Shown here piece by piece: positions 5,275 through 39,863 of a DNA stretch of 64,000 bases. This DNA is from an uncultured Planctomycetaceae bacterium. GTDB taxonomy: Bacteria; Planctomycetota; Planctomycetia; Gemmatales; Gemmataceae. The position numbers were made by a program, and so were the translations under genes. The stretch covers positions 1-64,000 of the forward strand of contig CALARU010000056.1 of the NCBI GenBank assembly GCA_937888715.1. The letters run 5' to 3'. How positions within the stretch are numbered: position 1 is the stretch's first letter; every line of letters begins with the position of its first letter. The notes under the pieces are model-generated. The model saw nothing but the letters and a program-made list of their open reading frames with translations. It was not told where the DNA came from and ran no database searches.

Positions 5275-5433
5275 AACTAGCTCCTAAATTGTTGAACAAG
5301 AACATCTACCTTTGCAAATTATAATCGAATGGACCAACAATTGTAAAAGGAATTGGCCTACCCATTCACTTTTTTTCATGTTATTGCCATCTTCGAAGGA
5401 AAAACCCTTTAATTGTTAATATGGAGAAGTAGT

Positions 5434-6378
5434 ATGAATTGGAAAACGAATTTAGCCACTATATGCATGGGATTATCCATTTTAACAACCTCCACCCTAG
5501 GCCAATCGCCACCGTCTAAAAAATTCCCTGCAACCGTTGCCAATATCAATGGCGAGCAAATCAGCGGTGCTGAACTCGAAAGCATCATTAAACAAATGGG
5601 CCCAAGCCCGATTCAAGTGCCAGAAAACACCAGAAAACAAATAGCCCGGGATGCGATGGCAATGCTAATTGATGATTTGCTAATGCAGCAATTTATAAGG
5701 CAAAATACTGCAGCAATTCCAGAGCAAGCTTTGGATCAAAAAATGGCAGAACTTGCAACGGATTTAAAGAAACAAGGAAAAACCATCCAAAGCCTTTGCA
5801 AGGAAACCCAACAAACCGAAGCTCAATTAAAGCGAACCATGCGCCTTAAGTTGCAGTGGGGGAATTTCGCAGCAGCGAAAATCAAAGATGAAAATGTTTA
5901 TAATTATTTTCTTCACAACAAAGATTTCTTCGATGGCACAATGGTTGGGGTTTCACTGATTATTATGCGAATTCCACCTGGAATGAGCCCAAGTGAAACA
6001 GCAAAACTTAAAGCCAAAATGCAGGATGTCAGAAACCAGCTTTTGATGAGTAAAATAGATTTTGCAAGTGCTGCCAAAGCCTATTCGCAAGATGCTTCTG
6101 GCCCAATGGGGGGGAATCTAGGATTAATCCCTAGAAAATATGCCTTGGAGGAACCCTTGGCGAGCGCGGCCTTCAAATTGGCGCCCGGGCAAATCAGTGA
6201 GGTGATTGAAACAGAAATGGGTATTCACTTGATAAGAGTCAACGAAAGAAAAGACGGAAAACTTTCAGACTTTACTAAGATCAAAGACGAAGTCAGAGAT
6301 TTTTGCAGCGAAGAATTTTTTCAGGACACTTTAGCAAGACAAAGAAAAACAGCAAGAATCGAAGTCTTCCTACCCTAA
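5434..6378 (+). CDS. Secreted parvulin-type peptidyl-prolyl isomerase (PpiC/SurA-like)
   Basis: A 314-residue exported protein with an N-terminal signal peptide ending near TSTLGQ, a SurA-type N-terminal helical domain, and a parvulin (PpiC) domain at roughly residues 168-276. The domain shows ASAAKAYSQDAS, MGGNLGLIPR, LAPGQISEVIETEMGIHLIRV. It probably assists folding of exported proteins in the periplasm or envelope. ATG 5434 is chosen because GGAGAA precedes it by about six bases. A TTG further upstream would add seven residues. It is transcribed alone and followed by a clear terminator. Confidence 0.92.
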   Translation: MNWKTNLATICMGLSILTTSTLGQSPPSKKFPATVANINGEQISGAELESIIKQMGPSPIQVPENTRKQIARDAMAMLIDDLLMQQFIRQNTAAIPEQALDQKMAELATDLKKQGKTIQSLCKETQQTEAQLKRTMRLKLQWGNFAAAKIKDENVYNYFLHNKDFFDGTMVGVSLIIMRIPPGMSPSETAKLKAKMQDVRNQLLMSKIDFASAAKAYSQDASGPMGGNLGLIPRKYALEEPLASAAFKLAPGQISEVIETEMGIHLIRVNERKDGKLSDFTKIKDEVRDFCSEEFFQDTLARQRKTARIEVFLP

Positions 6379-6406: not shown

Positions 6407-6439
6407 AAAAGCTTCGGGATAATATCCGAAGCTTTTTTT
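6407..6439 (+). terminator. Rho-independent terminator after the parvulin gene
   Basis: Perfect 8-bp stem AGCTTCGG/CCGAAGCT with an eight-base loop, followed by seven T residues, 29 bases after the stop codon of the PpiC-like gene. Confidence 0.92.
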
Positions 6440-6542: not shown

Positions 6543-8981
6543 ATGAGTTCAATCAACCGGTTTCGTTCATACGTAAAATACCTGCCAATACTTTTAGGAT
6601 TGGCCTTTTGGGTTTCATTACAACCACTTTTCAGCCAAGAACTTTCAACCGAACGCGAATTACTTAAAACCGCAGGTTTCAACCCTGCGAATACTCAATC
6701 CTTAATTCCTTTATTTAAAGGTCGTTCTTCATCAATTCCTGCTAACGCAAATATCGAAAAGTTGACTGCCCAACTTATAAACGGTAACCCAGAAGAAAAA
6801 CTTGCTGCTAAAAAAGATTTAATCTGCATGGGCGACTATGTAATCTCAACTCTCAAAAAAGCATCAGGCGAAATACTAGACCCAGCATCTGAAAAAAACC
6901 TTAAAGACTGCATCGAATTGCTAGAAGGTAAAGGGTCTGAAACCCTTATTTCTTCTGCGCTTAAAGTTATAGCATCTGAAGGAAAAGCAGAATCATCTGA
7001 AGTTTTATTTGCTTACCTTCCTTTTGCTGCTGAAGAAATATTGCGCAACGAATGCGAATCTACATTAAGGGTTTTATTTACAACTACAACAACTTCGGGA
7101 ACTCTCTTCGAAAAAACACTAACAGACCCTAACCCATACAAACGAGCTGTCGCTGCAGAAATTCTAGTGCGAAAGGGAAACCCCAAACAGATTTCAATGG
7201 CGAAAAGCCTTCTAAACGACCCCTCTTCTTTAGTCCGAACAAGATTAGTGCTAGCCTTTTTAGAACAGAAAGACCGAATCGCTATGCCTGCTGCCCTTAA
7301 ACTTTTGGCCTCAGATTCTAAGGACACCTCTTCTTTAATCGAAACTGCACTTGCGACTTTGGCAGGCGAATTGGCAATTCAAGGGCCGAAAAATGATGAT
7401 TCAATTTCAAGAAGTATCAATCAAGCAGCCTGGGCTGGCTGGTGGAAATCTATCAACGAACAAGATTTGCTTGCATTATTACGAGAATCAACCGCACCTA
7501 TGGAAATGATTGCGGATGCCGATAAGATTTTCAATGACAACAATATTGAACTGATTAAAAAACACATCAACAGCAAATCATTTAAAAGCAATCCTGCACT
7601 GCAAGCTTTTCTTTTAAATCGCGCAGCCTTCGACATGAAAATTGCGAAACTAATCGAGCCAGATTCCAACGCAATCAAACTCCTATTACAATCAAACCAA
7701 ATAACTCCCGCACTTATCAGGCTAGTTACTTTAGTAAGGCCTGCAAATGCAATCGAGATCATATTGGCCTTTATCCCCTCTTGCAATGATGACAATATTC
7801 AAGATCTTCTAGGGGAATGCTTAGGGCTTTATCTGAATGATCAAAACACAATCCCCCCTGCCTTGATAGCGGCATCAACCTCAAATATTGAGGAACTCAG
7901 AACATTTGCAGGAAAGGTTTTAGCACAGTCGCCAAATGAAATAGCTCAAAAAACCTGCACAACCTTGCTCGCAGATTCATCCGTAAGAGTGCGATTTGAA
8001 GTTGCACGGGAATCGATAAAAAACCAAAACAAATCTGCGATTCCTGTACTAATTGAATTGATGACAAAAGTTTCCGCAGAAAAAGCAGAAACAATAGACC
8101 AAACCCTTAGGGCAATCGCCAAGGGTAAGTCTCCTGAAAGCAAAAACGATAGCAAAATGGATGCTGCAGCGTGGAATACATGGTGGCGAAAAGAAGGACC
8201 TCAGTTGGTCCTGACTCCAGGGGCAAAAATCCAAGAGACGCTAAAAAACTTTCTAGTGGTTGAGTCGTTCAATCAAGAAAAAAAATCAGGGCGAGTCTTC
8301 TTGATCAACCCTTCAGGGAAAACCCTCTGGGAAATTGCAAATCTTTCCAACCCAACCGATGCCCTCTTACTACCAAACAACAAAATTTTGATCACCGAAC
8401 AAGGCGCAAACAGAATCACCGAAAGAGACACCAAAGGAAATATCTCCTGGGAAAAATCAGCTACTAATCCTTTCCTTTCACAGCGCCTATCAAACGGAAA
8501 CATTTTCATAGCTTCCAGAAACAAAATCGTTGAAGTCAGCAGAAATGGCACCGAGATCTTCAGTTTTTCCTACCCTAATCAAACAATTCTTGCTGCCTGC
8601 AAAACACGCACCAACGAATACGCTTTGCTGTGTTATAATGGGGTATTCTTAAAACTCGATTCCAAAGGCAATGAAGTCTCTAAATCACGGATTCCCTTCC
8701 CCACCAACTTCGGCATCAATGGTGGCGCAATAACTCAAAATGATCGCGTTCTTGTAAGCATTCCAACACTCAACAAAATCATGGAGTTTAACTTCAGTGG
8801 CCAATCTACTTGGGAATCAACAATAACAATGCCAGGAATCCCTACTAAACTTCCAAATGGAAATGTAGTGGCACCAAGTTTAAACGGATCAAAAATTGTT
8901 GAAATTCAAATGGATGGCAAGATAATATACGAAAGTGCACCAACTTCTTATCGCTCAATTAAAGTAGGTAAAGCCCCATGA
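6543..8981 (+). CDS. HEAT-like repeat plus beta-propeller secreted protein, paralogue 1
   Basis: An 812-residue exported protein. A signal peptide (to about LFSQ) is followed by HEAT/armadillo-type helical pairs to about residue 560. Two W-x-x-W-W linkers (AAWAGWWK near 295, AAWNTWWR near 540) are embedded in them. A C-terminal beta-propeller of six or so blades follows, with the recurring pattern LPNNKILITEQGANRITERD and WE or WES ends. The propeller resembles PQQ/arylsulfotransferase-type repeats, but no catalytic His is evident. This is the first of four tandem paralogues, and its stop overlaps the next ATG (ATGA). No Shine-Dalgarno is clear. A scaffolding or ligand-binding role is inference only. 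Confidence 0.85.
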   Translation: MSSINRFRSYVKYLPILLGLAFWVSLQPLFSQELSTERELLKTAGFNPANTQSLIPLFKGRSSSIPANANIEKLTAQLINGNPEEKLAAKKDLICMGDYVISTLKKASGEILDPASEKNLKDCIELLEGKGSETLISSALKVIASEGKAESSEVLFAYLPFAAEEILRNECESTLRVLFTTTTTSGTLFEKTLTDPNPYKRAVAAEILVRKGNPKQISMAKSLLNDPSSLVRTRLVLAFLEQKDRIAMPAALKLLASDSKDTSSLIETALATLAGELAIQGPKNDDSISRSINQAAWAGWWKSINEQDLLALLRESTAPMEMIADADKIFNDNNIELIKKHINSKSFKSNPALQAFLLNRAAFDMKIAKLIEPDSNAIKLLLQSNQITPALIRLVTLVRPANAIEIILAFIPSCNDDNIQDLLGECLGLYLNDQNTIPPALIAASTSNIEELRTFAGKVLAQSPNEIAQKTCTTLLADSSVRVRFEVARESIKNQNKSAIPVLIELMTKVSAEKAETIDQTLRAIAKGKSPESKNDSKMDAAAWNTWWRKEGPQLVLTPGAKIQETLKNFLVVESFNQEKKSGRVFLINPSGKTLWEIANLSNPTDALLLPNNKILITEQGANRITERDTKGNISWEKSATNPFLSQRLSNGNIFIASRNKIVEVSRNGTEIFSFSYPNQTILAACKTRTNEYALLCYNGVFLKLDSKGNEVSKSRIPFPTNFGINGGAITQNDRVLVSIPTLNKIMEFNFSGQSTWESTITMPGIPTKLPNGNVVAPSLNGSKIVEIQMDGKIIYESAPTSYRSIKVGKAP

Positions 8982-11443
8982 CAAATAAATTCAGGAATTT
9001 TGAGCAACTTCAGTTTTTTCAAATACTAAGCACCCTTGCTATAAGTTTTGGTATCTTCTTCTATTGCACTCTGCCCCGCCCAATCCTTGCACTTGAAAAT
9101 GAAGACTCTCTCGAAACCGACACGGTTTTTCTGACAAAGGCGGGATTCTCTCTTGCACCTAGCGATCTGGGAAACTGGCTTAACCGAAAATCAAAAGGCA
9201 CATTCACCGAAACTGAAATCGTAAAAGCACTGGCAGATCTTTCATCTTCCTCAAGGGAAATTCAAACTCAAGGAATAATGGCTTTGACCTCAATGGGGCC
9301 GACTGGAAGACCAGCATTAAGAAACCTGGAAAACTCTTCTGAAGGCGCAGTTAAAACACTCGCAAAAAACTGTTTAGATATGGTGGGCACACAATCCAGC
9401 AGAACCGAAATCGCAGTAATTCGAACCTTGGCCGCAAGTTCACCCCAGTTGGCAATTAATGGCATTCTTGAAGTATTCGCTGTTCTAGACGAAGAAACAA
9501 CATGGGATTTTGCCAGAAAAACCCTCTTCGAATTAACATGGAAGAACGAGGCACCAGACCCATTAATGATCGATGCCCTTTCATCGCCTTCAAAAACTCA
9601 AAGAGTTCTCGCATGGGAAATGCTGATTCCTGCTCAGAAACTTCTACCAAAAGATCTGCTTCAAAAAAGCATTAAAGATGAATCTCCCGAAGTGAGATTT
9701 TTAATCGCTTCAACTTTATCACGCAATCTGGATTCATCAGGCATCGAACTGCTGATTGAGTTGCTCCCGATCCTTCCTGAAAACAAAGCCCAAGAATCAG
9801 AAGATCTGCTTCTCGAAATTGCAGGAGATCTTGCACCGCAAGAATTGATTAAGAATAAGGGAACCCCGAAGGGGAATGCTGCGATCTGGAAAAAATGGTG
9901 GACGGAAATCAATGGGGAAAAATTACTACCAGAATTCACGCAAAAAATCCCCACCCCAGAAGATCAAAGAAAAATCAAAGACTTAATCAGGGAGTTAGGC
10001 GATGACAACTTTGAAACTCGCGAGAAAGCTTCTACGAAAATAAAAGCTCTAGGCAACCTCGTCGTCCCCTCGCTTAGATCACTCATCAATTCCATGGATG
10101 TTGAAATTAAAGGCAGAGCAAAAAGCCTTCTCGAAGAAATGGGAGAATCTAAATCGAAACCGATTTCTCCATCGCTTGTAAGAATCCTCGCCTTAAAAAA
10201 AACCAAAGGTTTGTTGCCTGCGCTATTAGCATACTTTCCCGTCGCAGAATCGGATGAACAATTCAACGAATTCCTCGAATCCGCAATCCTTTATGCCCGC
10301 CAACAATCGCTCCCCGATGCAGCAGTCTTAAAATCGCTTACTGCTGAAAACCCAAGGGTTAAACTAGCTTCCGGAATTCTGCTTTTACCATTCGACGATG
10401 CAAATTCCAAAGAAGCAATCAAAACCATCCTTGTGGATAAAAACCCTTGGATTCGAAATCGCATGGCTCTGGCCCTGGCAAATCTTGCGGACAAAACTGC
10501 TATTCCTATTTTGATAAATACGCTCGCAGATTTAAATCAGGAACAATCATCGGATAGCGAAACTTTTCTTTTCGAACTCGCAGGGGCAAACCTCCCCTCC
10601 GATCTTCCGACTTCACCTTCGGACCGAAAAAAAACAAAAGACGCATGGTTAGCTTGGTGGTCTAAAAATGCTGACAAAACATCGTTAACCAAAAACCTTC
10701 TGGGTAACCTTCAAGCTGTTTCCAAGGGAAACACCATCATTTCAAGCCTTGCCAATAATCAAGTTTTCGAATTGGATCGTAATGGCAAAGCCCGGTGGAC
10801 AATTACAGGCCTTTCCGGCCCCATGGATGCACAAGCTCTTCCCAATGGCCGCATTTTAATAACAGAACATCACAACATGAAAATCACCGAACGCAGCACT
10901 AAAGGTGATATTCTTTGGACAAAAGCCATTACCTCTAACCCCCTTAGTGCAACCCGGCATCGCAGTGGCCTTACTTCCATCACCTGCAGAAATATGATCC
11001 TTGAAGTCGATCGATCTGGTAAAGAAATACTTAATTTGCCTAGGCCTCAAAGCGACATCATGAGCGCTGAAAGGCTTAGAGATGGGTCTTACCTTGTTGC
11101 GACTAACCAAATGACTTTGTTGAAAATTGACCGCACAGGCAGAGAATCTAATATTGTCCGATTGCCATTGGGTGTCGCAAGCAATGCCAATGATATTCTT
11201 CAAGATGGTACAGTAATCCTACCCTTAACCTGGCATAACAAACTCCAAGAGATTGATCCTTCAGGAAAAGTTATTTTAGAAATAACGGTCAATCAACCTA
11301 CTGCTGCAGTAAGGTTACCCAATAAAAATATTCTTATCGCAACCCAAACTGTTCCACCCAAGCTGATAGAGTTTGACCGAACGGGGAAGCAAATTTCTGA
11401 AAAACAGGCCCTTCACCCAGTGTTCAGGATTCGAACCAGATAA
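8978..11443 (+). CDS. HEAT-like repeat plus beta-propeller secreted protein, paralogue 2
   Basis: An 821-residue paralogue with the same architecture as the preceding gene. An N-terminal hydrophobic export signal is followed by HEAT-like block 1, the linker AAIWKKWW near residue 301, and HEAT block 2. Block 2 carries the planctomycete-type repeat LGDDNFETREKASTKI from about residue 338. A linker DAWLAWW lies near 555, with a propeller from about 575 to the end (LPNGRILITEHHNMKITERS). Its ATG overlaps the stop of paralogue 1 by four bases, so translation is probably coupled. Function unknown; exported. Confidence 0.85.
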   Translation: MTNKFRNFEQLQFFQILSTLAISFGIFFYCTLPRPILALENEDSLETDTVFLTKAGFSLAPSDLGNWLNRKSKGTFTETEIVKALADLSSSSREIQTQGIMALTSMGPTGRPALRNLENSSEGAVKTLAKNCLDMVGTQSSRTEIAVIRTLAASSPQLAINGILEVFAVLDEETTWDFARKTLFELTWKNEAPDPLMIDALSSPSKTQRVLAWEMLIPAQKLLPKDLLQKSIKDESPEVRFLIASTLSRNLDSSGIELLIELLPILPENKAQESEDLLLEIAGDLAPQELIKNKGTPKGNAAIWKKWWTEINGEKLLPEFTQKIPTPEDQRKIKDLIRELGDDNFETREKASTKIKALGNLVVPSLRSLINSMDVEIKGRAKSLLEEMGESKSKPISPSLVRILALKKTKGLLPALLAYFPVAESDEQFNEFLESAILYARQQSLPDAAVLKSLTAENPRVKLASGILLLPFDDANSKEAIKTILVDKNPWIRNRMALALANLADKTAIPILINTLADLNQEQSSDSETFLFELAGANLPSDLPTSPSDRKKTKDAWLAWWSKNADKTSLTKNLLGNLQAVSKGNTIISSLANNQVFELDRNGKARWTITGLSGPMDAQALPNGRILITEHHNMKITERSTKGDILWTKAITSNPLSATRHRSGLTSITCRNMILEVDRSGKEILNLPRPQSDIMSAERLRDGSYLVATNQMTLLKIDRTGRESNIVRLPLGVASNANDILQDGTVILPLTWHNKLQEIDPSGKVILEITVNQPTAAVRLPNKNILIATQTVPPKLIEFDRTGKQISEKQALHPVFRIRTR

Positions 11444-11469
11444 ACAAACCAGGCCAGGAGGCTATTAAA

Positions 11470-13095
11470 ATGCCGGTAAGACACATAGGGGCATTAATCT
11501 TGGCAGTGTTATTGCCTTTCGCATTAGATAACACGACTGAGGATGAAAAAACACTTGCAGATGCCGGTTTAAAATCAGATGGGAATTCGTTGATTCAATT
11601 TTTAGCCCGCCGCTCTGAGGATAAATTTGACCCCATTCAGATCAAAGCTCTCATTGCAAAATTAGGGGATGATAATTTTGACACCCGCGAACAAACCTCT
11701 GCGACCTTGAATGCCATCGGAATCGCAGCCTTGCCTGATTTGAAAACAGCTTCTAAAAGTACGGATGTCGAAATATCTCGAAGGGCAAAAGATTGCATCC
11801 AAAAAATCGAAGAAGGATCTCGAAAATTTGTCGTCGCAGCGTCAATTCGATTATTGGGCACTAAGAAACCCGAAGGCGCACTGCAAGCTTTAATAAGCTA
11901 TTCACAGTTTTCGGAACTTGATCAAACCACCGAAGATTTAATCTACGCAATCACTGCTACAGGTTCAGAAAATGGAACCCCCTCGAAAATTATCCTTGAT
12001 GCGATTCGCAGCGATAAACCTTTGGTTAAAACGCTTTGCGCAGAAGCATTGGCAAATATCAACCCAGATTTGTTTAAGAAAGAAGCCCTCCCACTGCTTA
12101 ACTCTGATGAACCCAGAGTGCGTTATAAAATCGCCCTAGCCTTTGCCAAATTAGGCGACAAAAGATCTATCGAGCCACTCGTCAGCAGCATTGGTTCCGT
12201 TAGCCAATGGGAATCCTCGCTACTCGATCATTTGCTTAGAAAATTACTGCCATCGAACCCGCCCCCTGTTGGACTTCCTCAACCTGAACTTCAAAAAGAA
12301 TGGGCAAAGCGAACCACAGATACTTCGAAAATACTTGAAGCTCAGCTTGCCTTTAATGCCAAAAACATTGGGAAAACCCTTGTCATTTTATTAGATGCAG
12401 GCAAGTTAATTATGCTGGATTCCAGCAATAATATTCTTTGGAAAATTGACAATCTGCAATTCCCCCTCGATGCCCAAATCCTTCCTGATGAAAAAGTTCT
12501 GGTTGCAGAACATCAGGGAAACAAAGTTACAGAACGAAATAAAAAAGGCGAAATACTTTGGGAAAAGAAAATTGATGGTCCACTGGCAGTACAAAAACTT
12601 GAAGATGGATCCATTTTTATCGCATCAAAATCCAACGTCGTTTTTGTTGATCAAAAAGGCAAAGAAATATCGGAATTTACTCCACCCAACAATGAACCCA
12701 TCATGAAAGCTAACATCGCTTCCAATGGCGATCTTTGCCTCGTCCTTAACACCCCTCAAGGAAATGCAAAGTTCGTCCGATTTGATAAAAACAAAAAACC
12801 TGTCGCCACTTACGACATTGATGTTAGAACCTCAGGCGGAAAAGTAGATATTCTTCCCAATGGCAATTCCCTCATCACTGAAGTTTATGGCAACAGGGTC
12901 ATTGAATTTAACAATGAAGGGAAAGAAGTATGGCAATTTGAATGCGAGCAACCCGTAGCCGCTGTGAGATTACCAAATGGAAACACTCTTATTACATCAA
13001 TGACGCAAATGAAAGCCCTAGAAATAGACCTAAAAGGCAGAGAAATCTGGTCGTACAAATCAAACACCAGAGTTACCCGAGCATTTAGACAATGA
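11470..13095 (+). CDS. HEAT-like repeat plus beta-propeller secreted protein, paralogue 3
   Basis: A 541-residue shorter paralogue with only one HEAT-like block. A signal peptide (RHIGALILAVLLPFALD) is followed by LGDDNFDTREQTSATL from about residue 60 and helical repeats to about 257. A propeller from about 280 shows LPDEKVLVAEHQGNKVTERN and LPNGNTLITSMTQ. The W-x-x-W-W linker is missing. It has the best ribosome binding site of the array (AGGAGG at 11456-11461, eight bases before ATG). It therefore may be translated independently although it is only 26 bases past paralogue 2. It overlaps paralogue 4 by ATGA. Confidence 0.85.
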   Translation: MPVRHIGALILAVLLPFALDNTTEDEKTLADAGLKSDGNSLIQFLARRSEDKFDPIQIKALIAKLGDDNFDTREQTSATLNAIGIAALPDLKTASKSTDVEISRRAKDCIQKIEEGSRKFVVAASIRLLGTKKPEGALQALISYSQFSELDQTTEDLIYAITATGSENGTPSKIILDAIRSDKPLVKTLCAEALANINPDLFKKEALPLLNSDEPRVRYKIALAFAKLGDKRSIEPLVSSIGSVSQWESSLLDHLLRKLLPSNPPPVGLPQPELQKEWAKRTTDTSKILEAQLAFNAKNIGKTLVILLDAGKLIMLDSSNNILWKIDNLQFPLDAQILPDEKVLVAEHQGNKVTERNKKGEILWEKKIDGPLAVQKLEDGSIFIASKSNVVFVDQKGKEISEFTPPNNEPIMKANIASNGDLCLVLNTPQGNAKFVRFDKNKKPVATYDIDVRTSGGKVDILPNGNSLITEVYGNRVIEFNNEGKEVWQFECEQPVAAVRLPNGNTLITSMTQMKALEIDLKGREIWSYKSNTRVTRAFRQ

Positions 13096-14813
13096 GTAAA
13101 AGTCTTCTGCAATCTTTGTTGTTTTTGTTTCTTATCTGCAATATTACACATGGAGGTTGGCCTGAAGATGAAGTGCATTATTGGGATGATATAATCATTA
13201 AAAAATCAGGTATATCGACCAATCCCAAGGATATTCAGACCTGGCTGCAATCCAGAATCCCAAATGTAACAAACGGAATAAAAGCTTCAAAATGGGTTAT
13301 TGATCTTGGAAACGATAGCTTTGAAGTTCGAGAGCAAGCCTCCAGGGAACTTCTAAAACTTAACAATCTCGCAATATTTGAACTAAAAAAAGCGATCAAA
13401 AGTAAGGACATCGAAGTTGCCAAAAGAGCGTCAGACTGCCTTGAACAAATATCTCCTCATGAATCAATCGCTCTCAAAACAGCTATCATCCGACTATTGG
13501 GAAAGTCGAATCCTGAATTGGTTTTCGAATACTTTGCCAAAGTAGTAGATACCCCAGAACTTGACATCCTAACTTCCGAAGCATTGCTGGATGCATTTAG
13601 TATTACAATAAAATCAAACCCAACATTGGTACGAAAACTTGAAGATCGCTCGCAATCCAAGGATATTAAAAGTAGAATCCTTATTGCCCGGGTGCTTGCA
13701 ATTGGGAATCCCAACGGGATTGCATTCAGGAAGCTTTCAACTGATGACCAATCTATCGTAAAAGCAAACGCACTCCTCTCACTTCTTCTAGAAAAAGACA
13801 AAAAGGCCATTGGGTTACTAATAAGCTTATTACCTGAATTGAAAACCAATCAATTGATGCCAATTGCAGGATTACTTAACGAATTGATTCAAGACCAAGC
13901 TTCAGAAAAGGAACTTTCGAAAGAAAAGCCTTCTGCGGTAGAACTGCAAAAACTATTCGCTTCCGCATGGGAGGGCAAAAACGCCTCAACTAATCTGGAC
14001 ACATTTACTTTCAATCAATTACTACCTAAGCGCATCCTTGCATCTCTTGCAGAACCCAACCGGAGTGGAAAAATTTGTTCACTCAATCCAGATGGTTCAG
14101 TTACCGAACTTTTTCGCAACAATTCTTACGCTGACCTAGTTTGCGCAATCAATCATACACTGTTTTTTTTGATGGAACGATCCAGGGGTCACGTGATCAT
14201 CAACAACCTTGGCGAAATTTACGAAAGAAGCGGCCCGCTAATATCCACTTTTGGACTTGATACCGATGGCTTAGGAAAGAAGTTTATTCTGAATCGAAAA
14301 AATCTATTAGTCCTCGATTACACCAACAAAATTATAGAAAGTGTTGAGGTCAATAATGATTGCTTGGCAGGCACCCGCTTAATCAATGGCGACTATGCAA
14401 TTGTTTTCAAAGATAAATCTTTGCTAATTCTTGACGGAAAAAACCTTAAGAAAGAAAAAACAAAGATTTCATTAGGGGCGATTGAACCTGCACGCACTAT
14501 TCTTGGGTATCAAATTCAAGGAACCCGGTCCGGTTCGATTTTAATACCTGAATTCGGAGGCAAAGCGATCAATGAGTATGATCAGGCAGGCAAATTACTG
14601 AAAACCATTAAATTCAGCATAAATACCGGCAATTCCACTATTTATGGCCCAACTTTGACCATAAATACCAATGGAAATTTTTTGATTGGTACCCGACTAG
14701 GCGAAACGGTGACAGAATTGAACATGGAAGGCAAAGAAATAAGAAACTGGGCCCTAGATTCTAAATTACACCGCATTTTTTCCCAACCTTTGCGAATTAT
14801 TTGGCCCGACTAA
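13092..14813 (+). CDS. HEAT-like repeat plus divergent beta-propeller secreted protein, paralogue 4
   Basis: A 573-residue paralogue and the most diverged of the four. A signal peptide (SLLQSLLFLFLICNITHG) is followed by LGNDSFEVREQASREL near residue 75, one HEAT-like block to about 260, and a weakly conserved propeller from about 310 ending with NTNGNFLIGTRLGETVTELN. Blade motifs are more degenerate than in the other copies, suggesting relaxed constraint or a different ligand. Its ATG overlaps the stop of paralogue 3. No terminator hairpin is obvious before the tRNA-Leu gene. Confidence 0.82.
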   Translation: MSKSLLQSLLFLFLICNITHGGWPEDEVHYWDDIIIKKSGISTNPKDIQTWLQSRIPNVTNGIKASKWVIDLGNDSFEVREQASRELLKLNNLAIFELKKAIKSKDIEVAKRASDCLEQISPHESIALKTAIIRLLGKSNPELVFEYFAKVVDTPELDILTSEALLDAFSITIKSNPTLVRKLEDRSQSKDIKSRILIARVLAIGNPNGIAFRKLSTDDQSIVKANALLSLLLEKDKKAIGLLISLLPELKTNQLMPIAGLLNELIQDQASEKELSKEKPSAVELQKLFASAWEGKNASTNLDTFTFNQLLPKRILASLAEPNRSGKICSLNPDGSVTELFRNNSYADLVCAINHTLFFLMERSRGHVIINNLGEIYERSGPLISTFGLDTDGLGKKFILNRKNLLVLDYTNKIIESVEVNNDCLAGTRLINGDYAIVFKDKSLLILDGKNLKKEKTKISLGAIEPARTILGYQIQGTRSGSILIPEFGGKAINEYDQAGKLLKTIKFSINTGNSTIYGPTLTINTNGNFLIGTRLGETVTELNMEGKEIRNWALDSKLHRIFSQPLRIIWPD

Positions 14814-14875: not shown

Positions 14876-14959
14876 GCTGGAGTGGTGGAATTGGCAGACA
14901 CACCATCTTGAGGGGGTGGCGCCCGTAAGGGTATGTGGGTTCAAGTCCCACCTTCAGCA
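14876..14959 (+). tRNA. tRNA-Leu (anticodon GAG)
   Basis: An 84-nt class II tRNA. The acceptor stem is GCTGGAG/CTTCAGC with one G-T pair, the D-arm contains TGGCAGAC, and the anticodon stem is CCATC/GGTGG with loop TTGAGGG giving GAG. It has a long variable arm (GCCC GTAA GGGT) and the T-arm GTGGG-TTCAAGT-CCCAC. The discriminator is A, and CCA is not encoded. The long variable arm and the A discriminator fit leucine. The reading of the anticodon depends on the five-pair stem chosen, which contains one T-G pair. Confidence 0.9.
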
Positions 14960-15068
14960 CTGTTATTTTAGTAAGCCCGCTTTTAAACCCCTCGCTTTTC
15001 ACATTCATTTCGCTTATCATTTTCGGCATACAGTTTTTTGGTTTCCTCCTACTACTGGATTGATCTCC

Positions 15069-16056: not shown

Positions 16057-19000
16057 TTATCCCACAAAAACCCCGCCTGTGAACAATGGGTCGTAGGCGT
16101 AGAAGTTATACAACTGGCCTTTTTGATACCTAAATATTTTAACTTCAGGGCCACCATTGGTGTAAGGCGCAGTTACAATTTCAGCAACACCATCGTTGTT
16201 GATATCCGCCATTGCTACTGATAAGCCGCCCGCAAAGTTAATATCGTAGGCAAAGAAGGTGTCGATCAAGCTGGTTCCGGAACCATTGAACACCTTGATA
16301 TGAGGACCGCCACCAGGGCCTGCTGCGACAACAATATCACTTACAATGTCGCCGTTGTAATCTCCCGCACCAACAAAGACTCCTCGGTTAATTCCTGGAT
16401 CAAAAGCGAAGAAACTCGCAAGTACAACTTGCGTTCCTTGGGAAAGTTGGAAACCGCTGACGGCAAGAACATGAGGGCCACCGCCAGGGCCAGCACCAAC
16501 CACCACATCAGAATAACCATCGCCATTCACATCACCCGAAGCAACACTAATACCGCCGGTAAAGGCTGGATTGTATGCAAAGAAACTAGCAATGTTCGAA
16601 TAATCCAGGCCGCTAAAGACCTGAACATGGGGACCACCACCCTGCCCTGCACCGGTTATGATATCTGCATAGCCATCGCCATTCACATCACCCACCGCAA
16701 CGAATATGCCATCATTAAAGGCTGCGTTATAAGCATAAAAACTATGGATAAGCTGAAGGTTGGTGCCATCATAAACATTAACTTGAGGACCACCCCCTGG
16801 GCCTGCTGCTACAATAACATCAGCAATTCCATCGCCGGTGACATCGCCGGAAGCCACGCGCACACCGCCTCTAAAGGATGGAGCAAAAGCAAAGAAGTCC
16901 GTCGTTTGTTGAGTTAAAAGGTTGTAAACATTCACTTGCGGGCCACCCCCAACATTCGTGCCAGTAATCACCAAATTGCTGGTTGCGGTAACAGCTTGGA
17001 AAATCGTTGCTGTTGAGGAAGAGAAGTACCTGGTAATCGAACCATTAGGTGATCCAAGATAATTTGCAGTAATCGTATGACGACCACCTGCCAAAGTACT
17101 TGTAGAATAAGTTGCAACATTATTGCTAACCGCGACAGGAGCTCCCAAGGCAACGCCGTTATCTAAGAATTGCACTAATCCAATCGTGGACTCTGCAGGA
17201 ATAATCGGATTGGTTACGCTTGCTGTAAAAGTAATGGTCGCAAGTCTATCTGCAGGATTTCTTGAGGAAACCAGTCCTAGGGTGGTTATCGCCGTTGTTA
17301 AAATCTGCTGATTAAATATAGGAGAAAAAGCACTACCATTTACATTGCTATCTCCAAGGTATAAAGCATCAATTGTATGAAAACCAGTGGTGCTTATGGA
17401 AGTAAGCAACGTAGCAGTAGTAGCACCTGTAGTTGGATCTGTAACGGTAGTACTTATGGTTTGCAATGGCTGAATTACGCCATCGATTCTTATTAGAACC
17501 TGGCCGGTTGCAGGGCCACCTGCGTACTGAGGAGTAACAGTAGCCGTTACGGTCAATGGCAGATTAGTACCATAAACCTGACTGTTCGTGGTAACAGCAA
17601 CACTGGAACTCGATTTGTTAACGCTTTGAGCGATGATATTAGAATTACTGTCGCCAAAAATCCCCTGGCCAACAAAACTGGAAGTAATCACATGAGGCGA
17701 ACCATTAACATTTAAGGTGGTAGTAGTAAAAGTTGCTACGCCATTAGATACTGGAACTTGCCCTATAGAAACCCCTTGGTCGAAGTAAGTTACAGTACCG
17801 CTTGTAACCGTTCCTGTTACTGCTGAAATGGTAGAGGTAAAGGTAACAGATTCCCCATATTGGGTAAGATTATCAACATCGCTCGATGTCAATATATTTG
17901 TGGTTAGTACACCGACACAAGTCAAAGTTACATCGTTGCCAGTTCCACCAACATAAGAAATACGATAAGAAACGCTATCCCCTGAGGCGTCAAGAACCGT
18001 AATTAAAGAACCTTCAGCCTGACCATTAAATGTACCAACCACAGGGTCTGATCCATCATTGTTGATAATGGTATAATTGTTTCCGCGAACTATTGGGTTG
18101 AAATTCAAGTTAACATGAAGCACAGGGCTGCCAGAAAGATTTACTGTCCCATTAACAGCAAGTTGATCATAAGCTGTGCCTGCAACCGCACCTGATGTAT
18201 TTAAGTCAAAGGAAAAGACCCCAACAGAACTTTGCGCACTAATGCCAGAAGTAGTAAGCACGGAAACATTAGAAGTTTGCGTTCCAGGGGTTACCGTACC
18301 GTTCTGGCCGGCGCTCATGTTAAGAACACCAATCCGACCACTACCTTGAAGTGTACCGCTTGTATTAACAAATACCGGTACATTATCTTGACCAAGTTGG
18401 TATACAGTTCCTGCGCCAACCACGGTACTACCTTGATTATTGCCAATACCTGAAATGATCAAAGTGCCAGCACCAGTTTTTTGCAATGTGGAAGAACCAC
18501 CGTTGATTTTCCCAGAAAGGGTAAGTGTGCCCGTATCAACTCCAACATAAGCGAGTTGCATAGTTCCAGCCAGATTCACATTGCCGCCCCAAGTATTATT
18601 TCCACTAATACTTCGAAGCGCCCCTGCCCCGGCAACACCTGTGCCATCAAGATTTAAGGTTCGATTAGAAATGGATATTGCCCCTGCGGTGCCGCCATCC
18701 AAAGCAAGAGTTGCAGAATTTACAGGTACCGAGGTGGAAACGGTAACTTGGTTAGTTCCAATACCAAGATTACCAGGCGCTTGAACTAACAAAGTGCCTT
18801 CCTGAACTGAAATAGGAAGATTCAAACTAGTCTGAGCCTGAGAAACTACAACTGTTCCTGCTCCAGTTTTAATCAACTGGCTACTGACTGGAATCCCTGC
18901 AGCCTGAGTAATCTGGCCATTTATTATAAACTCACTCCCTGCACCACCCCCAAGGGATGATGTACCAGCAACGGTTATAGTTCCACTCCATGTGTTTTGC

Positions 19001-22000
19001 CCAATACTTTGCAATGCTCCAAAACCATTAAAGCCCGTTCCTTGGATGGTCACATTATTCGCAATATTCAAGCCACTTCCATTTACCTGTATTGAACCTG
19101 CACCTGAAAGCGCTGGTAGCGCAGGGGAAGTCTGAGTAACATTGATTGATGTTGGACTTCCCAAGGCATTGTTGTTAAGCAATTGCAAGTTACCATTACT
19201 TACCAACCAACTACCAGAAAATGCAGTGTTATTTGCACTTAATCCCAGATCCATTGACCCTCTTTTTTCAAGCTGAATTCCAGGGGAGGCAATTGTTACC
19301 GTAGGCGCTGAAGTATAATTGATACCACCATTTGCAACCGTAATGGATGTTACAACCCCGTTAGTCAAAACTGCAGTTGCGGAAGCTCCAGTGCCCCCAC
19401 CACCGGTTATGGTGACTGCTGGAACAACGAGATAACCACTTGACCCTGAAATTACTGGAATTGTTGTAACCTGCCCAAGAGCAATCGTTGGGATACCAGC
19501 AGTTGCGCTGGTAGCCAAGGAAGAAATCTGGCCACTGATCAATAGCGAAGAGTTGGGAGTTCCGCCAATAGATGCGTTGGTCTGAAGGCTCACGCCACCT
19601 TGCCACTCTACCGAATTAGGATTATTATTTGGCGAAACAACTTGCAATGCTCCAAGCCCTTCGACTCTTGATCCTGTGCTTAATGGTTGGCTAGGGTTTT
19701 GATCAGGGCCATTATTTGAAATAGTACTAGTATTGCCATCCTGAAGTATAAGATTATACTGAGAGCCAAAAACAAGATCCTGTCCACCATTTATTGCATC
19801 ACCCAAAGTCAAGGCGCCCCCCAATTGTTGGTTAGCCCCAAGCAGACTCGCAGGCAATTCACGAACAATAATGTTTTTTGGTGTACTAACTGGCCCTAAA
19901 GATGTCTCATTTTGCGCATTTAAAAACCCATCAAAAATCACTACATCACCACTAAAAGTATTGGCTTGAGTTAATTCAACGACGCCTTCGCCCCATTTAC
20001 GCAATCCTGCAACGCCACTTACCACGCCATTTATCTCTGTGATACTTGCAAATTCTTGACCAACACTTGGATCTCCACTTGGGTTTGCAATGCTATTGCC
20101 TATCAAATTAGCAGTTGCAGTTGCAGCCGTAGTTGCACCGCCACCAGTAAAAGTTAAAGCAGGAGCGACCAAGTAACCATTGCCACCCGATAAAATTGGT
20201 ATCGAAGTGATTACCCCGCCAACAAATGTGGGAGTACCTAAAATCGCTTGCCCGGGAGCTTGTATTGTAATTGTTGGTTGCGAAGTATAGCCATTTCCAT
20301 TGTTTGTAACTGTAATGGAAGCAACGGCCCCATTTACCAAATTGCCCACGGCTGTGGCTCCGGTTCCACCGCCACCAGATATAGTTACAATTGGTGCGGT
20401 CGAATAACCACTTCCGCGAAGGGAAACTGGAATTGATACGATTCGCCCATTTACTATGGTTGCAACACCAGAAACGGCTTCACCTGGGGCTAAAATGTTT
20501 ACCGTGGGGGCCGACGTATAACCAATTCCACCGCTTACTATATTAATTGATGTAACGAATCCATTTAAAACTGTTGCAGTAGCAGTAGCACCGGTTCCAC
20601 CGCCGCCAGTAAGCGTAACAAGTGGAGCACTCGAATAACCACTTCCAGAGGTAGCTACTGGAATGGAGGTAATTGCCCCAAGAGCATTTAATACAGGCAC
20701 ACCGGCTGTTGCTTCACCAGGTGCTAATATTGTAACGGTGGGTGCCGAGGTGTAACCTGCTCCTCCATTTAAAATATTAATTGAAGTAACAGATCCCCCT
20801 GTTAGCCCGTAAGTATCTCCTGAAACTGCTGAAGTTGTAACTTCAGCAGCATTTGAATTTAATGTTACGGTTCCGTTCCATTGATGCGGGAGAGCGCCAA
20901 ACGACAAATTAGAATCACGACCGGTAAATTCCCCAAAAGGTACATTTACAAGGTTCACATTTGATGCCACATTAGCATCCAAGGGAATATAGCCATCTCC
21001 ACCCAAAAGTATTAAGTTGCGATTGTTTATTGTAATAGGAGATGCGGATCGCTGGTTTACTCCCCCATTTGTATTAGTCCCGTATTCATCTATACTCAGC
21101 ATCAAAGTACCATTAGAAACCTCAACATTAGAATTTGTCAAAGCACTTCCGAGCCCATTACTATCTGAAACAATGAGTAAACCTTGTTGTACGGTAGTGG
21201 AACCCGTGTATGCATTATTTGATTCAAAAACTAATATCCCAAGTCCTTGCTTAACTATTTTGTTGTTATTTACATCGTTGAGCAATATATAGCCTCCTGA
21301 AGTATTGCCCCCATTAGAATCTTCATGAATGTCCGAATCTAGAATCAACCAAGACCCTTCCTGAACCACATTAAATACAAACGAAGACCCCGCTGGTGCA
21401 TTTGGATTTCCAACATTGATGGGGCTGTATATCCAATTTGCATTACCAGCGGAAGTATCCGAAGGAGTTGTAAGCGAACTTCCCACATAATTTGCCACCA
21501 TTTGCGTTTGAATATTTAAAGGCACTGCGGGGTTAAACGAAATATTTGTATTGGGATCAACCGTGGCAGGATCCACATAGACAAGAGCAGTACTAAGGCC
21601 ATTCGCCCGGTATGTAAAAGGGTTAAAGAATGGCGTGGTATTATCGTTTGTAGCACCGGGATAAAAGAACTCCGCTGTAATTGTTGTAGGAAATGTATTG
21701 ATCGGGGAAATCTGTCTGTTAAAAGGACCGAATTGAGGATTATCCCTGCCGTACATATAATATCCAGCTCCATCAAATTGAATCGCATCCACATAAACAA
21801 GGGGATTAAAATAATTAGCCCCGGTTACAGGGTCGCGCAAATAACCAGGAAGGTTTCCCGAGGCATCAGGTGAAAGATCATTGATTAAATTAACCTGAAT
21901 CGGCCCAGGCGGCGGACCAACCGGGGTAGCAGATGTATCAATTCGCGTAAGATCACCAAAGACCCCCTCTGTTGGTGTAGTCAACTGAGTATCAGCAATA

Positions 22001-22338
22001 TTTGGAAAAACTAGCGTATCACCATTCTGTGGAAGCGAAGTTTGCCCTAAAGTGGGATCCCAGTTCCCGCCAAGACTGTTAAACGCACTGCCGCCACCGG
22101 GGCCTGCTGCGGCCATAAATGAACTAAAAGTGGGGTCTCCATTGCTACCATATTCTACAGGAGGCCCAAGCACAGCATTAGCTCCTCCACTAACCAAACT
22201 GCCGTTCCACACTTTGGTGGCGCATTCAATTCGCTCTTCCAAGTTTTCAATATTAAGTTTTCGGGCTGTTATGCCCTTGTTCGATTTCTTTAAACCAAAC
22301 ATTCTCTTGATCGATTCCAACTTCCAATTGAATAGCAT
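16057..22338 (-). CDS. Giant surface protein: autotransporter-type beta-strand repeats, Ig-like domains, FG-GAP repeats
   Basis: A 2093-residue protein with ATG 22338 and GGAG upstream. The basic N-terminus is followed by NIENLEERIECA, resembling the N-terminal motif of Gemmata-type exported proteins. Residues about 350-1450 contain autotransporter-associated beta-strand repeats (for example GTGTLTLSGKINGGSSTLQKTG in shorter variants). Inserted in these are composite GYTSAPTVTI/GGGGTGATA repeats at about 510-750 and 960-1020. Roughly 1490-1790 are three bacterial Ig-like units (VTYFDQGVSIG, VQFLDNGVALG). Residues 1790-2093 are FG-GAP/VCBS-like repeats with calcium-type DVNGDGYAD motifs and AGPGGGP. 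It is probably a surface adhesin or fibre. No autotransporter barrel is seen, so the name describes the repeat and not the secretion route. Confidence 0.9.
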   Translation of the reverse strand: MLFNWKLESIKRMFGLKKSNKGITARKLNIENLEERIECATKVWNGSLVSGGANAVLGPPVEYGSNGDPTFSSFMAAAGPGGGSAFNSLGGNWDPTLGQTSLPQNGDTLVFPNIADTQLTTPTEGVFGDLTRIDTSATPVGPPPGPIQVNLINDLSPDASGNLPGYLRDPVTGANYFNPLVYVDAIQFDGAGYYMYGRDNPQFGPFNRQISPINTFPTTITAEFFYPGATNDNTTPFFNPFTYRANGLSTALVYVDPATVDPNTNISFNPAVPLNIQTQMVANYVGSSLTTPSDTSAGNANWIYSPINVGNPNAPAGSSFVFNVVQEGSWLILDSDIHEDSNGGNTSGGYILLNDVNNNKIVKQGLGILVFESNNAYTGSTTVQQGLLIVSDSNGLGSALTNSNVEVSNGTLMLSIDEYGTNTNGGVNQRSASPITINNRNLILLGGDGYIPLDANVASNVNLVNVPFGEFTGRDSNLSFGALPHQWNGTVTLNSNAAEVTTSAVSGDTYGLTGGSVTSINILNGGAGYTSAPTVTILAPGEATAGVPVLNALGAITSIPVATSGSGYSSAPLVTLTGGGGTGATATATVLNGFVTSINIVSGGIGYTSAPTVNILAPGEAVSGVATIVNGRIVSIPVSLRGSGYSTAPIVTISGGGGTGATAVGNLVNGAVASITVTNNGNGYTSQPTITIQAPGQAILGTPTFVGGVITSIPILSGGNGYLVAPALTFTGGGATTAATATANLIGNSIANPSGDPSVGQEFASITEINGVVSGVAGLRKWGEGVVELTQANTFSGDVVIFDGFLNAQNETSLGPVSTPKNIIVRELPASLLGANQQLGGALTLGDAINGGQDLVFGSQYNLILQDGNTSTISNNGPDQNPSQPLSTGSRVEGLGALQVVSPNNNPNSVEWQGGVSLQTNASIGGTPNSSLLISGQISSLATSATAGIPTIALGQVTTIPVISGSSGYLVVPAVTITGGGGTGASATAVLTNGVVTSITVANGGINYTSAPTVTIASPGIQLEKRGSMDLGLSANNTAFSGSWLVSNGNLQLLNNNALGSPTSINVTQTSPALPALSGAGSIQVNGSGLNIANNVTIQGTGFNGFGALQSIGQNTWSGTITVAGTSSLGGGAGSEFIINGQITQAAGIPVSSQLIKTGAGTVVVSQAQTSLNLPISVQEGTLLVQAPGNLGIGTNQVTVSTSVPVNSATLALDGGTAGAISISNRTLNLDGTGVAGAGALRSISGNNTWGGNVNLAGTMQLAYVGVDTGTLTLSGKINGGSSTLQKTGAGTLIISGIGNNQGSTVVGAGTVYQLGQDNVPVFVNTSGTLQGSGRIGVLNMSAGQNGTVTPGTQTSNVSVLTTSGISAQSSVGVFSFDLNTSGAVAGTAYDQLAVNGTVNLSGSPVLHVNLNFNPIVRGNNYTIINNDGSDPVVGTFNGQAEGSLITVLDASGDSVSYRISYVGGTGNDVTLTCVGVLTTNILTSSDVDNLTQYGESVTFTSTISAVTGTVTSGTVTYFDQGVSIGQVPVSNGVATFTTTTLNVNGSPHVITSSFVGQGIFGDSNSNIIAQSVNKSSSSVAVTTNSQVYGTNLPLTVTATVTPQYAGGPATGQVLIRIDGVIQPLQTISTTVTDPTTGATTATLLTSISTTGFHTIDALYLGDSNVNGSAFSPIFNQQILTTAITTLGLVSSRNPADRLATITFTASVTNPIIPAESTIGLVQFLDNGVALGAPVAVSNNVATYSTSTLAGGRHTITANYLGSPNGSITRYFSSSTATIFQAVTATSNLVITGTNVGGGPQVNVYNLLTQQTTDFFAFAPSFRGGVRVASGDVTGDGIADVIVAAGPGGGPQVNVYDGTNLQLIHSFYAYNAAFNDGIFVAVGDVNGDGYADIITGAGQGGGPHVQVFSGLDYSNIASFFAYNPAFTGGISVASGDVNGDGYSDVVVGAGPGGGPHVLAVSGFQLSQGTQVVLASFFAFDPGINRGVFVGAGDYNGDIVSDIVVAAGPGGGPHIKVFNGSGTSLIDTFFAYDINFAGGLSVAMADINNDGVAEIVTAPYTNGGPEVKIFRYQKGQLYNFYAYDPLFTGGVFVG
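20090..20820 (-). repeat. About 80-residue composite repeats inside the giant surface protein
   Basis: Three consecutive units of about 226-241 bp. The GGGGTGATA-coding segment recurs near 20137, 20363 and 20604. Each combines a GxGYTSAPTV half and a GSGYSSAPxVTxTGGGGTGA half. A fourth, separated copy lies near 19290-19460. The strong amino-acid and partial DNA similarity indicates intragenic duplication. Confidence 0.85.
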
Positions 22339-27840: not shown

Positions 27841-28316
27841 GATTTATCCATTATTAGATATATCACAACTACTTATATATTCTTATCTGTCGCCTACTTT
27901 GCGCCTGTTCACGCCGCTGATTTATAAGCTAATAAACCAAATATCATTTTCATCCTCGCAGATGACTCGGGTTTAGCAGGCTTTGGTTGCTATGGGCATT
28001 CCTATTCTCGCACTCCTAACATTGATAACCTCGCAACCGATGGCACCCGCTTTACGCAGTTCTATGCAACTGGAGTCACTTGCTAGCCAACTCGTACAGG
28101 ATTAATGACGAGCAAGTGGCCCGCATCCTATCCCACTTATCTGGCGAATGGTGGTTTTGCAGGCCAGGTAACGATCACGGAATTGCTGCACAAAAACGGC
28201 TACACAACCGGCCACTTCGGCAAGTGGCACATCGGGCCAGAAAACCGGATGTTGTGCAAAGTCTTTCTAAGAAAATTAAGGATTGGATATCTACGCTACC
28301 TAAAGAATACATCTAG
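27841..28316 (+). pseudogene. Sulfatase pseudogene with two internal stops and a large internal deletion
   Basis: One frame reads a signal-peptide-like stretch (FLSVAYFAPVHAAD), a TAA at 27925, NKPNIIFILADDSGLAGFG, and the active-site region VTC-TAG-PTRTG. The stop at 28084 therefore sits inside the C-x-P-T/S-R formylglycine motif. It continues to GYTTGHFGKWHIGP. Directly afterwards, in another frame, comes KPDVVQSLSKKIKDW..LPKEY, the usual C-terminal end of such sulfatases, ending at 28316. The roughly 300 central residues are gone. This is clearly a dead gene. Confidence 0.88.
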
Positions 28317-28571
28317 ATCGACGACAAAGACTAAAACACCAATCGATATTATGCAGCGCGTTACTCCGGGTTGCATGTTGTTGCGTTCCTACAAAGATGG
28401 CCGCATGACGCTTGTATAGCCACTGAAGATCGAGCATCACAGCAACACGGCGTGGTTTTATGGCCATAGATCATTTTCTCAAAATCAATGATGATTTTCT
28501 CACAAACAGTGATACGAAATACTATAGTAGGTTTGATAATACACCGGTCTTAATTTATAAAGGAACGAGTA

Positions 28572-29711
28572 ATGAAACTAAGATTACTGAAAATAATGTT
28601 ACTAAGTGCTACGGCCTCTGGGTTGTTATTGTTAGGGATGCCCTTTGGATCATCTCAGGAAATCGCACAACCTGCGCCTAAACAGCAAGTACTTAAACAT
28701 GACGGCAAGCCTGCGGATATGACCAAGCCCGTAAAGGTATTTATCCTGCTTGGGCAATCCAACATGGTTGGCCTCGGAAAGATAAAAGGCCCGGACGGCT
28801 CGCTCGAGTTCGCGGTGAAGGAGAAGAAGAAATATCCCTACCTCGTTGATGATGGCAAGTGGACGGAGCGGAAGGATGTCCGCTTTGTGCAGTATATGTC
28901 CGGCAAGGGCCCGCTGAGAAATGAATGGATGACAGTCACTGGCGGCAACCTCGGGCCTGAATACGGCATCGGCCACCCGCTGGGAAATGCGATCGACGCA
29001 CCCGTGATGATCCTCAAGTGCTGCATCGGCAACCGCGCTCTGGGCTGGGACCTCCTGTCGCCCGGCAGCGAGCGCCGCGAGTTTGTCTCCAAGGACAAGG
29101 CGGGAGTGGAAAAAAAGTTTGTCTATGCCGGCTACAAGGACAAACCCGAATTCTGGGAAATGGACCCCGCGAAGGGCCTCAAAACAGAACCTGCCCCTTG
29201 GGTTGATAAGAGCGGCAAGCCCATCCAATGGTATGCAGGCAAGCAATGGGACGATGACACCGGCGACGCCAAAAAGGCCCTGACGGATCTCGAAAAACAC
29301 TATCCAGGAGCCAAGGGCTACGAGGTCGCAGGATTCTTCTTCTGGCAGGGTGAGCGGGACGCCGGCAACGCCGGACATGCCGCCCATTATGAGAATAACC
29401 TCGTCCGTTTCATCAAGGCGGTGCGAAAGGAATTCAACGCACCCAATGCGAAGTTCGTGCTTGCCACCATGGGGGAATCCGTAAAGGGCAACGGCGGTAA
29501 GATTCTCGAAGCACATCTCGCAGTTGACGGCTCAACAGGCAAGTACCCCGAGTTCAAAGGCAATGTTGCAACCATCTACACACACCCCATGGCACAAGGC
29601 GGTAGCGGCAACGGCCATTACGGCGGCAAAGCCGAGGTTTACATGGATGTTGGTGAATCAATGGGCATGGCCATGACAAAACTACTAGGCAAAGGCAGTG
29701 CCAGCAAATGA
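28572..29711 (+). CDS. Secreted SASA-type carbohydrate esterase (sialate O-acetylesterase-like)
   Basis: A 379-residue exported esterase of the SASA/CE6-like family. A signal peptide is followed by block I FILLGQSNMVG with Ser63, then GGNLGPEYGIG, FFFWQGERDAGN near residue 258, and GNGHYGGKAEVY near 349 supplying the catalytic His. It would deacetylate acetylated sugars or xylan-like polymers outside the cytoplasm. AGGA lies about ten bases before ATG. The coding region is GC-richer than the surrounding AT-rich DNA. The next gene overlaps its stop by ATGA, so the two are coupled. Confidence 0.88.
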   Translation: MKLRLLKIMLLSATASGLLLLGMPFGSSQEIAQPAPKQQVLKHDGKPADMTKPVKVFILLGQSNMVGLGKIKGPDGSLEFAVKEKKKYPYLVDDGKWTERKDVRFVQYMSGKGPLRNEWMTVTGGNLGPEYGIGHPLGNAIDAPVMILKCCIGNRALGWDLLSPGSERREFVSKDKAGVEKKFVYAGYKDKPEFWEMDPAKGLKTEPAPWVDKSGKPIQWYAGKQWDDDTGDAKKALTDLEKHYPGAKGYEVAGFFFWQGERDAGNAGHAAHYENNLVRFIKAVRKEFNAPNAKFVLATMGESVKGNGGKILEAHLAVDGSTGKYPEFKGNVATIYTHPMAQGGSGNGHYGGKAEVYMDVGESMGMAMTKLLGKGSASK

Positions 29712-31012: not shown

Positions 31013-31015
31013 TGC

Positions 31016-32782: not shown

Positions 32783-32854
32783 TCCAAATAAATTAGAATG
32801 TGTGTTAAGCTCGTAATGTATAGTAAAAGATATCCATTAAACGAGGAGTAAGCC

Positions 32855-33145
32855 ATGAAGAAGGTAAGGGCTGTGTATTCTAAAGAGTTCAAAGTATCAA
32901 CAATAAGAATGATGGAAAGCAAAGGTATGAGTGCTAAAGAGTTGGAAGAGTCATTGGGGGTACCAGCGCATACTATTCGCCAATGGCGTCGCCAAATTAC
33001 CGCAGAAGGGCCAGAATCATTCACAGGTAAGGGTCGAATGAACGAGAAGGATGCCGAGATAGCCAGACTGAGATTCGAGAATCGAAGGTTGCTGGCAGAG
33101 CGAGAGATTTTAAAAAAAGCGGCGGTCTTTTTTGCGCAGCATTAG
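32855..33145 (+). CDS. IS3-family transposase OrfA
   Basis: A 96-residue OrfA with an N-terminal helix-turn-helix (EFKVSTIRMMESKGMSAKELEESLGV in part, HTIRQWRR) and a C-terminal leucine-zipper-like helix ending EREILKKAAVFFAQ, typical of the group. GAGG lies about nine bases before ATG. Near its end is an A7G run (33112-33119), the standard slippery site for -1 frameshifting into OrfB. The protein looks intact although the element is not. Confidence 0.9.
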   Translation: MKKVRAVYSKEFKVSTIRMMESKGMSAKELEESLGVPAHTIRQWRRQITAEGPESFTGKGRMNEKDAEIARLRFENRRLLAEREILKKAAVFFAQH

Positions 33146-33147
33146 GA

Positions 33148-33640: not shown

Positions 33641-33894
33641 AATGAGCCACTACAAGCACCCAAGAACCCCTTAAGGAAAAGAAAGCTTCCTAAAAGCCTT
33701 ACCATCCATTCGGACTAAAGTAGTCAAAATCAAAGCAAGGTGTACCAACAAGAATTAAAAAAAATATACCAGAGATTTGTTTCTGAACTAGTAACCCGCC
33801 TATTATACAACTTAGAATCTGAAATTTCTCCAATCGAGACTGCGAGTAACACATGTCGATCCGAACCGCTTCTATCATTCAATCAGGAAAAACG

Positions 33895-39844: not shown

Positions 39845-39863
39845 GAGTTAATAAATTTACAAG

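Follow-up and report, generated by a model that had tools for sequence, protein, structure and literature searches.

An ordered array of four HEAT-propeller paralogues beside a SurA-like parvulin gene in the Gemmataceae

BamB is a lipoprotein of about 375-390 amino acids (aa) that has an eight-bladed propeller and lacks a HEAT arm. Planctomycetes have unusual, heavily folded envelopes, and little is known of the accessory proteins of their outer-membrane assembly. BamB occurs there as multiple paralogues of unclear role (PMC8567305, PMC10632474), and the accessory Bam genes of P. limnophila are non-essential, not found or multi-copy (PMC10632474). A propeller and an alpha-solenoid are also joined in the membrane-coat proteins of the Planctomycetes-Verrucomicrobia-Chlamydiae (PVC) group, whose defining architecture is an N-terminal propeller followed by a C-terminal alpha-solenoid (PMC2799638). 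Here we describe four adjacent genes for proteins with a HEAT solenoid followed by a propeller, found at positions 6543-14813 of contig CALARU010000056.1 from an uncultured planctomycete of the family Gemmataceae. The window referred to below is the whole stretch of DNA that was analysed, 64,000 nucleotides (nt) in length.

Architecture of the four proteins and their closest counterparts

The four genes are as follows:

6543-8981, forward strand: copy 1, 812 aa, long form, with an N-terminal hydrophobic segment, HEAT block A and a W-WW linker, HEAT block B and a W-WW linker, and a C-terminal propeller (open reading frame (ORF) list, Pfam, family profile, position-1 ortholog group at 98/99)
8978-11443, forward strand: copy 2, 821 aa, long architecture as in copy 1, its start overlapping the copy 1 stop (ORF list, Pfam, family profile, position-2 ortholog group at 99/97)
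11470-13095, forward strand: copy 3, 541 aa, with an N-terminal hydrophobic segment, one HEAT block (model residues 22-298) and a propeller of about six blades (303-540) (AlphaFold model, family profile, position-3 group at 100/100)
13092-14813, forward strand: copy 4, 573 aa, short architecture as in copy 3, which it overlaps (AlphaFold model, conservation, weaker position-4 group)

The original prediction of four adjacent genes with a signal-type N-terminus, HEAT repeats and a C-terminal propeller agrees exactly with the ORFs and is borne out by Pfam, the family profile and the models of copies 3 and 4. The 4-nt ATGA overlaps that it described between copies 1 and 2 and between copies 3 and 4 are present, with a 26-nt gap between copies 2 and 3, and the same spacing (-4, 25 to 27, -4) also occurs in two other species of the window genus. 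Adjacent copies align nearly end to end, with 27% identity for copies 1 and 2 (E 3e-56), 30% for copies 2 and 3 (E 8e-62) and 25% for copies 3 and 4 (E 1e-23). By these alignments the four copies are one homologous set, with similarity far beyond chance.

All four match a Gemmataceae HEAT-propeller family profile comprising a HEAT block, the W-WW linker and a C-terminal propeller with an invariant E518 (copy 3 numbering). The HEAT part of this profile is matched twice in copies 1 and 2, where one propeller then follows, and once in copies 3 and 4. Per Pfam, HEAT_2 is above its cut-off in copies 1-3 and below it in copy 4 (E 0.0013), while PQQ_2/BamB- or ASST-type propeller matches are below cut-off in copies 1 and 2 and above it in copy 3; the copy 4 propeller region yields other weak propeller-type matches. 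Among the family members scanned, 16/18 have PQQ_2 matches. Fold models were made for copies 3 and 4, and the architecture of copies 1 and 2 is taken from the family-profile matches. With family alignments, AlphaFold yielded confident models of a helical solenoid followed by a propeller for both copy 3 (mean predicted local distance difference test score 87.7) and copy 4 (mean 87.8, predicted template-modelling score 0.85), each with a low-confidence N-terminus. The strand count of the copy 3 model makes the propeller probably six-bladed.

Copy 3 is the most family-typical of the four. The fraction of propeller sites equal to the family-majority residue is 0.25 in copy 4 vs 0.43-0.51 in copies 1-3, in line with the original prediction that propeller conservation drops in the fourth copy; the corresponding HEAT values are 0.33 vs 0.31-0.40, which puts copy 4 within the usual range there. 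The copy 4 propeller is thus the most diverged in sequence, with its fold retained in the predicted structure. R73, W278 and E518 are invariant in the 93 members other than copy 4 rows; E518 is also present in 8/8 copy 4 rows, and W278 is lost in some of them.

Each window copy starts with a hydrophobic stretch preceded by at least one basic residue. Such an N-terminal segment is present in 127/130 family members, a measure that is not specific by itself, as 102/130 also have an internal stretch of this kind. From their sequences, we infer that the array products are exported and located on the periplasmic side.

The propellers are of the same broad class as BamB, with PQQ_2 (PF13360) likeness and E. 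coli BamB among the fold matches, and a SurA-like gene adjoins the array; judged by the domain that bears the function, BamB is the closest named family. In contrast to BamB, the array proteins have about six blades, a HEAT solenoid in front and, in this sampling, a distribution limited to the Gemmataceae. Inspection by eye showed no clear lipobox in the N-termini of the four window copies. The best match to the BamB equivalog TIGR03300 is a weak local match of copy 3, at 26.6 bits vs a cut-off of 285.2, and on this score the proteins are not classed as BamB orthologs. The PVC membrane-coat-like protein gp4978 of G. obscuriglobus, from the same bacterial family, likewise has an alpha-solenoid and a beta-propeller in one chain (PMC2799638), but there the propeller comes first, whereas the array proteins have the solenoid first and appear exported; the reversed domain order in the copy 3 and copy 4 models rules out membership of the membrane-coat group. 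A C-terminal propeller in a Gemmata relative is also found among the beta-propeller proteins of the pore-containing membranes of G. obscuriglobus (PMC5287468), but the antibody target there is annotated Na-Ca exchanger/integrin-beta4, suggesting an FG-GAP surface-protein type, a comparison made by annotation only.

The top whole-chain Foldseek match for copies 3 and 4 is the eukaryotic protein Raptor, probably only because both have a solenoid-then-propeller order (HEAT then WD40 in Raptor); with 11-12% identity, a template-modelling score of about 0.33 and a root mean square deviation of about 23 A, homology is not implied. BACCAC_01654 of Bacteroides caccae (3no2), a stand-alone propeller, is among the closest solved sequences to the propeller half (E 5e-10) and is also a fold match, but it has no HEAT arm.

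Conserved order and position-specific orthology

The long-long-short-short order is found in five genera (the window genus, G017, G023/G072 as one genus, G076 and G088); two further genera, G044 and G100, have a long-long-short array. Other genera have three short copies (G009, G019, G067, G090 and G093) or two copies. To place the copies we used a careful 54-member tree, a quick 101-member tree, a careful tree of the long forms and a tree of single HEAT blocks. In the 54-member tree, window copies 1, 2 and 3 group with the G017 and G023 copies of the corresponding position at 100/99, 100/98 and 100/100. In the 101-member tree, the position labels need 4 changes vs 22.3 in shuffles, and the position-3 group has a support of 100. 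This quick tree placed the copy 1 sequences from the window genus and from G088 with the position-2 group; the careful long-form tree, which has positions 1 (98/99) and 2 (99/97) as separate groups, puts them in position 1, and is followed here. Position 4, the fastest evolving, forms a weaker group (95 in the 101-member tree, 87/71 in the 54-member tree).

Judging by these trees, positions 1, 2 and 3 are separate ortholog groups kept in order, with position 4 weaker. Same-position copies of other genera are closer kin to the window copies than are their neighbours in the window, and so the array is older than these genera and not a recent duplication. The original prediction of a stepwise duplicated set is not supported here, and recent stepwise duplication by HEAT-block loss is rejected on the trees. 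In the unrooted single-block tree, the extra block A of the array long forms is one clade (99), so that it dates from one old event before copies 1 and 2 split, and block B groups with the short-form blocks. A second long lineage (L087, L103 and L109) seems to have acquired its doubled HEAT block on its own, and the usual form in the family is the short one; a gain is for these reasons more parsimonious than a loss. Copies 1 and 2 do have one block more, as had been proposed, but within the limits of an unrooted tree the size difference is better read as a gain in the copy 1/2 ancestor than as a loss along the array.

The ratio of nonsynonymous to synonymous substitution rates (dN/dS) within the window genus is 0.085-0.20 for each of the four copies, where estimable. 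Purifying selection, as measured by these ratios, therefore acts on all four copies, and all are maintained as proteins. Together with the homology of the four copies, their export-type N-termini and the position-specific ortholog groups, this selection is consistent with four specialised subunits. The domains were known already; no published description of the ordered four-gene array was found in the openly licensed literature, in agreement with the original prediction, and the array appears undescribed.

The parvulin neighbour, family distribution and possible functions

Two features lie directly upstream of copy 1:

5431-6378, forward strand: SurA-like parvulin-type peptidyl-prolyl isomerase with its own N-terminal hydrophobic segment (the listed ORF starts from a TTG at 5413; the ATG at 5431 is the likelier start)
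6407-6436, forward strand: terminator-like hairpin between the isomerase gene and copy 1, with a 12-bp stem and a T run

Six genera (the window genus, G088, G044, G072/G073, G009 and G069) have parvulin homologs 129-240 nt upstream in the same orientation. A functional link between parvulin and array is likely, since no more than 3-5 parvulin hits occur in each array genome checked and since the other flanking genes differ among the parvulin genera, apart from the window genus and G088. Two loci vary this arrangement: two tandem SurA-like parvulin genes lie upstream of the three-short-copy array of G009 (L083, 4608-6588), and in G017 a gene for a reverse-transcriptase-domain protein (L078, 10763-12736, reverse strand) is directly upstream of the four-gene array, in the place taken by the parvulin gene in other genera.

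The family profile retrieved strong matches in 93/95 genomes and 39/39 genera of the Gemmataceae. The full HEAT-propeller architecture was not seen outside this family across the class, where the matches listed comprise only HEAT halves or stand-alone propellers. Copy number ranges from one per genome (e.g., the large-genome genera g17, g46 and g53) to many, and some genomes carry scattered extra copies beyond the array; scatter and variable number in relatives are thus seen in part, alongside a conserved ordered array. At one locus of G069 (L232, 4254-8890), three proteins of about 470-490 aa, encoded in tandem, have only the HEAT half in common with the family, followed by a C-terminal part without a domain assignment. 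An MlaD-domain gene lies near some single-copy members; a link to Mla phospholipid transport was dropped, as the four loci concerned all come from one genus (g17). An ImpE-domain gene adjoins another paralogue clade.

The reading that we tentatively favour is that the four genes encode paralogues, each specialised, from a Gemmataceae-wide family of scaffold proteins that are exported, lack enzymatic activity and handle envelope or outer-membrane proteins with the SurA-like parvulin. In each protein, both the HEAT solenoid arm and the C-terminal beta-propeller (BamB/NHL-like) would lie on the periplasmic face of the envelope and bind partners or clients there, and the proteins would act on client or outer-membrane proteins together with the parvulin encoded upstream. 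The two long and two short subunits would fill different, non-interchangeable places, possibly in one hetero-oligomer. With the family in every sampled Gemmataceae genus, an ordered and differentiated array and a SurA-like neighbour, the locus is a concrete candidate for a lineage-specific envelope-assembly machine, and makes clear predictions on co-purification and loss-of-function phenotypes. Several points weigh against this reading. Many relatives manage with one family member, and a four-part complex therefore cannot be essential to basic function. The hairpin at 6407-6436 suggests separate transcripts for the parvulin gene and the array in the window; it has the longest stem in a scan that overall found no more terminators than in shuffled sequence. 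Several array genera have no parvulin gene in the flank examined, and of the six genera with the parvulin, two (the window genus and G088) have further neighbours in common, so that those two cases are not independent. BamB-type propellers are common in planctomycetes (T. immobilis has 28 annotated BamB-like paralogues; PMC8567305), and finding them does not identify a pathway. Localisation, interaction or other experimental data on the array proteins were not found. An improbable extension would make the four products one hetero-oligomeric extracytoplasmic scaffold, restricted to some of the Gemmataceae, whose two long and two short subunits would form a lattice or hub organising the periplasm or outer membrane of heavily invaginated cells, as a periplasmic, reversed-order counterpart of coat-like assemblies.

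It is somewhat unlikely, and yet the strongest competitor to the scaffold reading, that the products are four independent exported binding proteins with a common fold and different ligands or partners, forming no single complex and kept in an array for co-expression only. Copy numbers from one to many, scattered extra copies, the 25-30% identity of array copies, the strongly diverged copy 4 propeller and the different arrays of some genera (three short copies in G009, G019 and G067) all fit such independence, but the fixed long-long-short-short order of five genera and the position-specific orthologs exceed what co-expression needs, without proving contact. A coat- or pore-forming assembly shaping the invaginated envelope, like PVC membrane-coat or nuclear-pore-like proteins, is quite improbable. 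Helical solenoids and propellers are also the fold types of eukaryotic coats and PVC membrane-coat proteins (PMC2799638), the set of long and short forms is fixed, and the sampled range is the Gemmataceae, two members of which, T. immobilis and G. obscuriglobus, have heavily invaginated membranes (PMC8567305); against these stand a domain order opposite to that of the membrane-coat proteins, the apparent export of the array proteins, and the lack of any sequence link to the G. obscuriglobus membrane proteins (PMC5287468), which were compared by annotation only. We consider it very improbable that the propeller acts catalytically, as a lyase, lactonase or arylsulfotransferase-like enzyme, with the HEAT arm as a docking domain. 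Weak ASST matches and a fold resembling those of virginiamycin B lyase and 6-phosphogluconolactonase speak for an enzyme, and conserved Asp, Glu and Arg residues in the propeller leave room for metal-dependent chemistry, but the 93 members other than copy 4 rows have no propeller His or Cys with conservation above 60%, so that binding is favoured over catalysis, and fold matches of this kind are common to propellers in general. BamB, 3no2, YxaL and BtuG2, all of them binding or non-enzymatic propellers, are among the best bacterial matches to the propeller in sequence and fold; other solved propellers close by are NHL domains and virginiamycin B lyase. Least probable, and already disfavoured, is a lineage-specific tandem expansion under weak selection with little functional coupling. 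The many planctomycete BamB-like paralogues (the 28 of T. immobilis; PMC8567305) and the HEAT-only tandem relatives at L232 are compatible with it, but the low dN/dS of every copy, the orthologous positions retained across genera and the parvulin neighbour retained where other flanks differ all argue against it. A defence role was also considered and rejected, as PADLOC gave only weak HEAT-type matches.

Other features of the window

Downstream of the array, the following were noted:

14876-14960, forward strand: tRNA-Leu (GAG), downstream of copy 4 and forming the right-hand boundary of the array
16057-22338, reverse strand: 2093-aa surface-type protein with PATR, Big_3_5 and C-terminal FG-GAP repeats

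In both the window genus and G088, the array has this FG-GAP surface-type protein as a neighbour. The pore-associated propeller protein of PMC5287468 carries an annotation (Na-Ca exchanger/integrin-beta4) of a similar type, a likeness by annotation only. Further along, the stretch at 28000-40000 is GC-rich (0.50-0.53 vs about 0.42-0.45 in its surroundings) and was possibly acquired; its genes encode a SASA esterase, a Sel1/C39 protein, an amine oxidoreductase, a three-fasciclin protein, an FGE-sulfatase-type protein and an LRR/DUF4440 protein.

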